NCBI RefSeq assembly: GCF_002160495.1
Contig: NZ_NFKR01000007.1
Span: 1-64,000 of the forward strand
Direction: 5' to 3'
Length of the DNA stretch: 64,000 nucleotides
Source: Erysipelatoclostridium sp. An173
GTDB taxonomy: Bacteria; Bacillota_I; Bacilli_A; Erysipelotrichales; Coprobacillaceae
The number at the start of each line of letters is the position of its first letter. Within the stretch, counting starts at the first letter, position 1. Position numbers and translations under genes: made by a program. The notes under the pieces were generated by a model. That model ran no database searches. It was not told the origin of the DNA and saw nothing but the letters and a program-made list of their open reading frames with translations. Shown here piece by piece: positions 19,855 through 22,836 of the stretch.

Positions 19855-19883
19855 TTGACATTTTATAGTGTTTATAATATTAT
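19855..19883 (+). promoter_or_regulatory. sigma-A-type promoter of the CorC/HlyC gene
   Basis: TTGACA (19855-19860) and TATTAT (19878-19883) have a 17-bp spacer. Two overlapping TATAAT boxes at 19873 and 19881 have poor spacing. Confidence 0.6.
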
Positions 19884-19919: not shown

Positions 19920-21200
19920 GTGGACCCGAGTCAGATAGTTAATATTGTTGTATTTATTATTTTAATATGTTTATCTAGTTTTTTCTCGTGTACAGAAACA
20001 GCGTTTTTATCAGCAAATAAAATCAGGATGCGTAATTTGGCTGAAGAAGGGGATCGTCGAGCTAAAAAAGTAGAAAAACTTTTATCAAATACAGATCGTT
20101 TGTATAGTTCGATTTTAGTTGGTAATAACTTAGTTAATATTGGAGCGTCTTCATTGACTACTTCAATTGTTATTTCAATCTTTGGTAACTCAGCTTCATT
20201 AGTTGCTGCAGCATCAGGGGTAGTTACTTTGTTGATTTTGGTATTTGGAGAAATAACACCTAAAACATTTGCTACTAAAAATGCTGATCGAATAGCTCTG
20301 TTTATGTCGGGATTTGTTTCATTCATTTGTTTTATATTTACACCAGTAGTTTTTTTATTGAATATTATTACTGGATTTATAATTAAACTATTAGGTGGTA
20401 ATAAGGATAATGGACCGACAATGACTGAAGAAGATCTCAAAACAATTGTAACTGTTGGTCATGAAGAAGGGGTATTGGAAGAAGAAGAAAAAGAGATGAT
20501 TCATAATGTTTTTGAATTTGGTGAAACCGAAATCAAGGAGATTATGACACCGAGAATCAATGTTGATAGTATTCCTGATGATTGTAGTTATCAAGAATTA
20601 ATGGAAATATATAAACGTGGACAATTTTCTAGATATCCGGTACATAGTGAAAGCTTTGATGAAATTGTTGGGGTATTAAATGTAAAGGATTTATTATTCT
20701 TTAATATTGATCCAGATGAATTTGAAGTTAAAGATTACATGCGTGATACATTTGTTGTTTATGAATTTAATGAAGTTGGCGATGTTTTTGCCGCTATGCG
20801 TAAAGAACATGTTTCATTAGCGATTGTTTTAGATGAATATGGAGTTATGAGCGGGATTGTAACTTTTGAAGATATCGTCGAAGAAATTGTTGGTGAAATT
20901 GATGATGAATATGATGATGAAGACGACGATATGATAATTAAATTAAGTGAAAATGAATTTTTAATTGATGGTAGCTTGAATTTAAATGAAGTTAATGATA
21001 AAGTAGGAACGGATTTTGATTCTGAGGATTTTGAATCGATTGGTGGCTTAGTTCTTGGTGAAGTTTCGGGAGTGCCAGAAATTGATGAAGAAGTCCAAAT
21101 CGATAATGTCTTATTTAGAATTGTAAAAATGCATAAAAATAGGATTGCTCAATTAAAAGTTACTATTTTAGAAGAAGAGGAAGAAGGAGAGCATCGCTAA
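19920..21200 (+). CDS. CNNM/CorC/HlyC-family transporter protein with CBS domains
   Basis: A 426-residue membrane protein of the family linked to magnesium export (MpfA, CNNM). The N-terminal DUF21 domain (about 5-180) has three or four membrane helices and SCTETAFLSANKIRM. A CBS pair lies at about 200-325 (IMTPRINVDSI, LAIVLDEYGVMSGIVT), and an acidic linker leads to the CorC_HlyC domain (about 340-420). Translation starts with GTG after AAGGAG. In most relatives mraY would follow the division PBPs; this gene sits there instead. A terminator overlaps its stop. Confidence 0.93.
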   Translation: MDPSQIVNIVVFIILICLSSFFSCTETAFLSANKIRMRNLAEEGDRRAKKVEKLLSNTDRLYSSILVGNNLVNIGASSLTTSIVISIFGNSASLVAAASGVVTLLILVFGEITPKTFATKNADRIALFMSGFVSFICFIFTPVVFLLNIITGFIIKLLGGNKDNGPTMTEEDLKTIVTVGHEEGVLEEEEKEMIHNVFEFGETEIKEIMTPRINVDSIPDDCSYQELMEIYKRGQFSRYPVHSESFDEIVGVLNVKDLLFFNIDPDEFEVKDYMRDTFVVYEFNEVGDVFAAMRKEHVSLAIVLDEYGVMSGIVTFEDIVEEIVGEIDDEYDDEDDDMIIKLSENEFLIDGSLNLNEVNDKVGTDFDSEDFESIGGLVLGEVSGVPEIDEEVQIDNVLFRIVKMHKNRIAQLKVTILEEEEEGEHR

Positions 21201-21217: not shown

Positions 21218-21233
21218 AAAGGAGATGTGTAGG

Positions 21234-22550
21234 ATGAATAAAAATATTGAAATAAAAAAAGTTGGGATCAATGGAGAAGGAATTGGTTATTTAGATCGTA
21301 AGATCGTATTTGTACCTGGAGCATTACCAGGAGAAGAAGTTGTTGTAGATATTGTTAAAAGAAATAGAGGATATAGTGAAGGAAAATTAGTGAAAATTTT
21401 AAAACCGGCTAAAAACCGAGTTAAACCACAATGTTTTCTATATGATAATTGTCAAGGCTGCAATATGATGCATATGACTTATTTATCACAGTTAAAAGAA
21501 AAAAAAGAAGCAGTTCGAGAATCAATTAGAAAATATAGTGAATATGATTTATCAAAAACTGTTTTTAAAGATGTGATCAAAGCTGATAAACAAACTGGTT
21601 ATATTACTAGTGTTAATTTACCAGTTGTTCGATTTAAAGATAAAATCACATTTGGTATTTATCAACGTGAAAGTAAGTATTTAACAGTTATGAATCGCTG
21701 TTTAAAACACCATCCTTTGATTAATCAATGTTTGAATGATTTGGAAACAATTCTTACAAATGAAGATTGTCGAGTTTATAATGATAAATTTAAAACAGGA
21801 CTTAGATTTTTAAAAGTAAAATTAGTTGAAGATAAAATTCAATTAGTTTTCATTACTGGTCGTGATGGTTTAAGTGATCAAACAGTTAAACAGATCAGTC
21901 AATTACCGTATGTTGCTGGAATATTTATGTCAGTAAATACATCTAAGTATCAAGAGTTTGATGAAACTGGTTATTCAAAGTTATATGGGTCATCACGTTT
22001 AGAAATGTATCATGATGATAAAAAATATTTAGTAGGTATTAAAACTAAATTACCTGAAAATATTGATATGATGTGGAAAGAAAATCAAATTGTTAAAACA
22101 ATGGTTAAAGATAGCCAGAAAATAATTTCAATTAATTGTAAAGCAGGATTTTTAGAGTTAAATTTAGACCAGGAAGAAATTATTGCAATTGATGAAAAGA
22201 AATATCATATTGAAGATGCTAAATTAAATGTTAAGTATTTAAATCGTGATAATGTTAAATTTATCGCTGGAAAAGTAGATGAAAGAATAGTAACTCACGC
22301 TAAAAAGAAAATTTATGATACTTTAATTATTCATGGTGATCGAACAAAAATTAGTGAAAGAATTATTAATACAATTAAAATAGCACGTTTTAATACAGTT
22401 ATTTATATTAGTCAATCACATTCATCATTAGCTAAAGATATTGCTGAGTTGGATAAAAGTTATGATATTGAACGAATCGCTGGTTTAGATACATCTTGTC
22501 ATAATACTTATTTGACAACGATTGTAAAATTAGTTCGTAAAGCAAGATAG
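21234..22550 (+). CDS. RlmD/TrmA-like protein with iron-sulfur cysteines but no catalytic residues
   Basis: A 438-residue protein with the layout of 23S rRNA m5U methyltransferases (RlmD/RlmCD): a TRAM domain (about 1-58), then the [4Fe-4S] ligands Cys67, Cys73, Cys76 and Cys156 (C-x5-C-x2-C and RCLKHH), an insert and a Rossmann-like C-terminus. The catalytic signature is lost. Where active enzymes read VSCNP with the nucleophilic Cys, this has YISQSHSS, with Gln394 at the Cys position. The general base Glu of the HxxHLE motif is Thr428. SAM motif I (DLYCGxG) reads SINCKAG, and the DPPRxG motif is absent. It is therefore probably not an m5U methyltransferase, although it could still bind RNA and the cluster. 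AAAGGAG precedes the ATG. Confidence 0.85.
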   Translation: MNKNIEIKKVGINGEGIGYLDRKIVFVPGALPGEEVVVDIVKRNRGYSEGKLVKILKPAKNRVKPQCFLYDNCQGCNMMHMTYLSQLKEKKEAVRESIRKYSEYDLSKTVFKDVIKADKQTGYITSVNLPVVRFKDKITFGIYQRESKYLTVMNRCLKHHPLINQCLNDLETILTNEDCRVYNDKFKTGLRFLKVKLVEDKIQLVFITGRDGLSDQTVKQISQLPYVAGIFMSVNTSKYQEFDETGYSKLYGSSRLEMYHDDKKYLVGIKTKLPENIDMMWKENQIVKTMVKDSQKIISINCKAGFLELNLDQEEIIAIDEKKYHIEDAKLNVKYLNRDNVKFIAGKVDERIVTHAKKKIYDTLIIHGDRTKISERIINTIKIARFNTVIYISQSHSSLAKDIAELDKSYDIERIAGLDTSCHNTYLTTIVKLVRKAR

Positions 22551-22565: not shown

Positions 22566-22811
22566 ATGGAAATTAAATATCAGCCACATGGGGTATGTTC
22601 AAGACAAATTATTATTGATGTTGAAGATGGCATTGTAAATAGTGTTAAATTTGTAGGGGGATGTTCAGGAAATACTCAAGGTGTAGCAGCATTGGCCAAA
22701 GGTATGAAGGTTGATGATGTAATAGATCGTTTAGAAGGGATTCGCTGTAATAGTAAACCAACAAGCTGTCCTGATCAATTAGCTAAAGCTTTAAAAGAAA
22801 ACGCAAGATAG
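22566..22811 (+). CDS. TSCPD domain protein (TIGR03905 family)
   Basis: An 81-residue protein with a conserved cysteine pattern: GVCSRQI at about 9-15, GGCSGNTQG at about 31-39, IRCNSKPTSCPDQL at about 59-72. The TSCPD domain also occurs at the C-terminus of some ribonucleotide reductases and is suspected to bind metal. Stand-alone members have no proven role. It is placed 15 bp after the RlmD-like gene, with an AGGAGGAAAAG ribosome binding site, so the two form an operon closed by a terminator. Whether the cysteines of the two proteins are functionally related is unknown. Confidence 0.88.
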   Translation: MEIKYQPHGVCSRQIIIDVEDGIVNSVKFVGGCSGNTQGVAALAKGMKVDDVIDRLEGIRCNSKPTSCPDQLAKALKENAR

Positions 22812-22836
22812 TGGAAAGCGATTTCCACTTCTTTTC
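22811..22836 (+). terminator. rho-independent terminator
   Basis: GTGGAAA (22811-22817) and TTTCCAC (22822-22828) pair around GCGA, followed by TTCTTTTC. Confidence 0.85.

Follow-up and report, generated by a model that had tools for sequence, protein, structure and literature searches.

A YfjO/RlmD-like protein without methyltransferase catalytic residues, conserved across a bacterial family and often encoded next to YihY

Why should a bacterial family keep, in every genome, a gene for an RNA methyltransferase that has lost the residues of its active site? The question is raised by a gene of Erysipelatoclostridium sp. An173, found within a window of 64,000 nucleotides (the whole stretch of DNA that was analysed, from contig NZ_NFKR01000007.1). 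The original prediction saw there an RlmD-like protein that had kept a TRAM domain and the four ligands of a [4Fe-4S] cluster but had lost catalysis, in a reading frame intact over 438 codons and so, it was supposed, held by selection for another task. Translation of positions 21234-22550 from the ATG at 21234 does give 438 uninterrupted amino acids, and a Shine-Dalgarno sequence (AAGGAG, 21219-21224) suits that start better than it does the in-frame upstream ATG at 21225. Cys67, Cys73, Cys76 and Cys156 are found on translation at the predicted positions and in the order expected of RlmD, as ligands of what would be a [4Fe-4S] cluster. Pfam recognizes the TRAM domain (44.3 bits), in which I12 to G16 are invariant in the alignment of both dead and active groups, and all Pfam methyltransferase matches are below threshold.

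What enzyme was this? NCBIfam TIGR00479 (RlmD) accepts the window protein, which scores 202.9 bits where 183.55 are required, as it does three of six further members of the family (L007, L021 and L033 pass; L015, L038 and L040 fail). The predicted likeness to RlmD holds insofar as this rumA cut-off is passed. It does not hold for RlmD proper: the gene tree and the TRAM motif place the protein in the YfjO subfamily, and by sequence comparison it is a YfjO orthologue, not strictly RlmD. The Bacillus row of the tree (L109) I take to be YfjO itself by its gene order, pdaA, yfjR, yfjQ, yfjP, yfjO, yfjN. The search for an active copy that had been recommended turned up, in the 2.9-Mb assembly, one further full-length homologue (G000:C28:36909-38207), 23% identical and with all its motifs intact: FYQINP, DAYCGIG, DPPRKG, ISCD and HIEN. 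TrmFO is also present elsewhere in the genome. The standard m5U sites therefore have other candidate enzymes.

Alignment with intact relatives bears out the replacement of the nucleophilic cysteine by Gln394 and of the general-base glutamate by Thr428. DPPR is gone as well, its place taken by His367-Gly-Asp-Arg370. SAM motif I, said to have vanished with it, has the degenerate form NCKAG in the window protein, but many members of the family retain part of it (NCGIG). The residues by which RlmCD of Streptococcus pneumoniae contacts RNA and SAM (PMC6235398, PMC5614603) were mapped onto the alignment, where the nucleophilic cysteine is residue 408 of the RlmCD chain as aligned. F281, Q283, Y293 and D381 correspond to Lys272, Pro274, Asn284 and His367, and the ribose-binding acid E333 to Asp320, a position that is Asp or Glu in 38 of 40 family copies.

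The site is dead in the whole clade. Among the 39 free copies of the tree set with a readable C-terminal half (G060-G062, where the gene is in pieces at contig ends or its frame is broken, are left out), none has the catalytic aspartate and cysteine together, and none has the cysteine at all. The aspartate of DPPR survives in one copy out of 40. At the base position stand Thr (18 of 40), Asp (7) and still Glu (6), so this position alone is not diagnostic. The replacements of the cysteine differ within the clade as well: Asp, Gln, Ser, Lys and Ile all occur. No other cysteine at a catalytic position is shared by the dead clade, nor does the alignment contain any cysteine conserved across the clade besides the four ligands. 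Cys302, present in 28 of 40 copies and considered as a new catalytic cysteine, matches the one that active enzymes have in DAYCG and is an old residue. That the family protein is a pseudoenzyme is close to certain.

When was catalysis lost? The gene is found in all 43 genomes of the family (20 genera, Coprobacillaceae-like; the named members in the collection are Faecalibacillus intestinalis, Candidatus Stoquefichus, Massilimicrobiota, Sharpea azabuensis and Kandleria vitulina, from which the family is taken to be the Coprobacillaceae), and a homologue is found in 59 of 60 relatives across the order. Of 58 orthologues in the sister family, 57 have kept the catalytic residues (17/18 in a first sample and 40/40 further ones), as judged by Cys, Glu and a DPPR motif or something close to it. 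Some family members have a second copy, fused to YihY, and catalysis is lost in all five of these too. In the tree the copies of the family, whether free or fused, group as a single clade of 45 rows (SH-aLRT 100), set apart by a long stem with some 1.0 change per column. The nearest relatives of this clade, when the tree is rooted on the RlmCD group, are the YfjO-like rows of the sister family. All remaining rows of the tree but one have the catalytic Asp and Cys. Parsimony gives two losses of catalysis on this tree, which came from a quick search without bootstrap and whose inner nodes are unsure from long branches: one on the stem of the family and one in another place. The latter, apparently a second, independent and younger-looking loss in one genome only, concerns a sister-family gene (L043, G057:C25:11425-12732) in which Cys has become Ser and Glu has become Gln, with the other motifs intact and YihY adjoining. 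Horizontal acquisition was considered and is not needed, as the tree follows taxonomy.

In the window, 33 bases separate the gene from a CorC/GldE-type gene before it and 15 from a TSCPD gene after it (Table 1), and the three are flanked by a promoter-like site and a terminator-like hairpin. The promoter listed for this likely operon is a candidate from a scan that overall gave no more matches than did shuffled sequences. A CorC/GldE-type gene adjoins the dead gene, or YihY, across most of the family. The window genus and some relatives have the TSCPD gene (TIGR03905) immediately after the dead gene, and several genera have RnfC, of an electron-transport complex, downstream of it (L020, L022, L027-L029, L037, L038, L163, L164).

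Table 1. Positions, in the window, of the dead gene, its sites and domains, and its neighbours.
Feature	Position	Strand	Remark
Sigma-70-like promoter candidate (11 of 12)	19855..19883	+	consensus match only
CorC/GldE-type CBS membrane protein	19920..21200	+	first gene of likely operon
Dead YfjO/RlmD-like gene	21234..22550 (stop included)	+	438 aa; orthologues in 43/43 family genomes
TRAM domain, residues 4-53	21243..21392	+	Pfam PF01938; GINGEG motif common with active YfjO
Cys67 codon, putative [4Fe-4S] ligand 1	21432..21434	+	Cys set in 37/40 free and 5/5 YihY-fused dead copies
Cys73 codon, ligand 2	21450..21452	+	alignment
Cys76 codon, ligand 3	21459..21461	+	alignment
Central domain, residues 101-270	21534..22043	+	RNA-contacting in RlmCD; 22 columns conserved dead-only
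Cys156 codon, ligand 4	21699..21701	+	alignment
Degenerate methyltransferase domain, residues 271-438	22044..22547	+	fold kept (AF2); catalytic columns lost
Degenerate SAM motif I (SINCKAGFLE)	22128..22157	+	alignment
HGDR for DPPR, residues 367-370	22332..22343	+	alignment with intact relatives
Gln394 for nucleophilic Cys	22413..22415	+	alignment
Thr428 for general-base Glu	22515..22517	+	alignment
Four-Cys TSCPD protein, TIGR03905	22566..22811	+	third gene of likely operon
Terminator-like hairpin after TSCPD gene	22810..22829	+	consensus match only

If the chemistry is gone, what remains? The AF2 model of the window protein (alignment of 33; pLDDT 93.3, pTM 0.90) finds its best fold match in RlmCD (5XJ2; Z 42.1, 433 residues aligned, rmsd 2.4) and matches RumA with Z 39, so that by prediction the full-length COG2265 fold, of TRAM, central and Rossmann methyltransferase domains, is intact though the catalysis is not. 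Conservation has shifted out of the methyltransferase domain and into the central one. Calling a column conserved in one group if it is so in at least 90% of that group but not of the other, the methyltransferase domain has 25 columns conserved only among active proteins vs 5 only among dead ones, and the central domain has 4 vs 22 (Fisher p 5e-7, indicative only, as columns are taken to be independent and the rows are related). Residues of the central domain that are fixed in the dead clade and unlike the active majority include R145, M153, N164, F192, F206, F242, G246 and Y247.

The alignment also covers positions that in RlmCD meet RNA. H151, N247 and N249 of the RNA loop are represented by Lys148, Lys238 and Gln240, and the dead clade is conserved in residue type at these three (Lys in 35/40, Arg or Lys in 36/40, Gln in 36/40, respectively). 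At the position of R127, the RlmCD residue most important for RNA affinity (PMC6235398, PMC5614603), the window protein has Ile124, and only 24 of 40 family copies have Arg or Lys. The net charge of the dead protein, +12, is like that of active YfjO, and RNA may be the ligand of the free form. In the copies fused to YihY the net charge is -5 and the GINGEG motif is gone, both of which argue against RNA as a ligand shared by the two forms.

The four cysteines are kept in 36 of 39 readable free copies (37 of 40 with one truncated copy added) and in all five fused ones, and the dead protein presumably binds a cluster. By parsimony the set was lost three times. Dead copies in Kandleria-like genera (L040-L042, L089) have none of the four, and from the three copies L040-L042 it follows that the cluster is not indispensable. 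There are also sister-family proteins (L047, L057, L059, L063) with intact catalytic motifs from which the cysteine set is gone.

I propose, with about even expectation of being right, that the dead protein is best read as an adaptor or chaperone that binds RNA and carries an Fe-S cluster, is not catalytic, and is possibly associated with the membrane. A vertically inherited YfjO orthologue of the m5U-methyltransferase type, with the COG2265 fold, would have lost catalysis a single time, at the root of the family, and would afterwards have been kept as a cytosolic RNA-binding protein with a structural [4Fe-4S] cluster. RNA would be bound by TRAM, the cluster loop and the central domain, with the methyltransferase domain serving as a scaffold. 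The protein would then most likely act on rRNA or tRNA, as an RNA chaperone or as an assembly or adaptor factor, and in many lineages it would do so alongside YihY, a membrane protein. There are precedents in TrmA, which acts as a chaperone (PMC11301382), and in TRMT2B, which has lost its cysteine (PMC7237155).

Other explanations must be weighed against this one, among them that the gene is a pseudogene in decay. The frame is indeed broken once (L163 in G060, a single-contig genome, where a frame change that splits the gene is either an assembly error or a recent break), and within the family the methyltransferase domain shows less similarity than does the N-terminal half. Yet almost all of the 43 genomes have an intact frame, across the time span of a whole family, there are invariant columns, and pairwise dN/dS over the whole gene (Nei-Gojobori, pairs with dS <1, rough where dS is near 1) is 0.05-0.23. 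This is purifying selection, as had been supposed from the intact frame, and it is similar for residues 1-270 and 271-438, save for one C-terminal value of 0.34. Decay is rejected for the family by the presence of the gene in 43/43 genomes and by dN/dS, and I give it hardly any credence. A pocket rebuilt for some other reaction or cofactor would account for the motif I glycines that are partly kept, for the ribose acid, and for the newly conserved S299 and E308, but what replaces the catalytic residues varies within the clade, as at the cysteine site, so that no new catalytic residue is fixed there; I consider this improbable. It is also unlikely that the protein is a pseudo-subunit of the active paralogue, binding either that RlmCD-like enzyme (C28) or the RNA on which it acts so as to tune methylation at U747/U1939. 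At least one further homologue is present in 36/36 family genomes searched as relatives, those sampled having intact active sites, but the dead gene and the active paralogue share no locus, no sign of an oligomer interface emerged, and no partner requirement is known for RlmCD or RumA.

The most interesting alternative is linked to YihY, and it is compatible with an RNA adaptor or chaperone role. The dead protein would be a partner of YihY/BrkB, a cytosolic regulatory or sensor domain whose input is the Fe-S cluster (redox or iron status) and not RNA. The gene order CorC, YihY/BrkB, dead gene occurs in 22 of 43 family genomes (one with the fused form), and the frames of the last two often overlap, by lengths that are upper bounds, the first ATG having been taken as the start. 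The second dead copy, in five genomes of three genera (L084:2764-4887, which equals L039, and L159-L162), forms the C-terminal portion of a protein some 711 amino acids long, the N-terminal portion being YihY/BrkB (51.7 bits). It falls within the family clade and has kept all four cysteines while losing its positive charge and GINGEG. In G017, G025 and G033 no YihY was found other than the fused one. In the AF2 model of the fusion (pLDDT 90.3, pTM 0.70) the last helix of the membrane domain runs directly into TRAM. The dead protein may be in physical contact with YihY. On the other side, the sister family also has YihY upstream of orthologues whose catalytic motifs are intact (by Pfam in G041 and G052; 8/40 of the later sample; Traorella), as it has upstream of the L043 gene in G057 (Pfam), from which it follows that the pair is probably older than the loss of catalysis. 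The idea that the adjacency is specific to the dead form was rejected when profile searches placed YihY beside active orthologues. Moreover, in the window genus YihY is absent from the locus, with two copies elsewhere, and no settled function for YihY was found in the literature. I regard the sensor partnership as possible, on the doubtful side. A broader version I offer as speculation, rather unlikely to be right: an RNA methyltransferase would have turned into an Fe-S module that serves a membrane system from the cytosol, as operon partner of YihY and later as a domain fused to it, and would either sense iron or redox state or hold RNA or ribosomes at the membrane.

Whichever of these is right, nature has separated the Fe-S site from catalysis: the dead family has the ligands without catalysis, and RlmCD and some sister-family enzymes have catalysis without the ligands. 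The cluster's purpose is therefore directly testable. The curated equivalog model TIGR00479 gives the name RlmD to a catalytically dead family; it accepts proteins without catalytic residues, so the public annotation of this family as methyltransferases is probably wrong. What is new here is the frequent pairing with YihY/BrkB and the fusion of the second dead copy to it, which link YfjO, of unknown function in Bacillus subtilis (PMC7226160), to YihY, of unsettled function. Literature searches found no paper pairing Erysipelotrich with RlmD, and nothing relevant on inactive methyltransferases in ribosome assembly.

How does the dead protein compare with known systems? Loss of catalysis is already a known kind of change, having precedents in TRMT2B, Trm2 and TrmA. 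Bovine mitochondrial TRMT2B has lost its nucleophilic cysteine and is predicted to be inactive, and catalytically inactive Trm2 is capable of rescue (PMC7237155); the TRMT2B case is one substitution in a small group of mammals, whereas here a whole active site has been lost in a bacterial family. TrmA, with the same fold, is a tRNA chaperone with a role in RNA folding beside catalysis (PMC11301382), but it is also an active enzyme and specific to tRNA. RlmD/RumA of E. coli (1UWV, 2BH2) shares the domain order, the fold and the four [4Fe-4S] cysteines with the window protein, which is only 17-18% identical and is without the catalytic Cys, Glu and DPPR. YfjO of B. subtilis (COG2265) is the nearest subfamily by its GINGEG TRAM, the gene tree and the full-length fold, and has the four cluster cysteines, but it keeps F281, Q283, DPPR, Cys and Glu. 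RlmCD of S. pneumoniae (5XJ2, 5ZQ0), the closest in fold, is active and has no Fe-S cysteines (PMC5614603), the mirror image of the dead protein.
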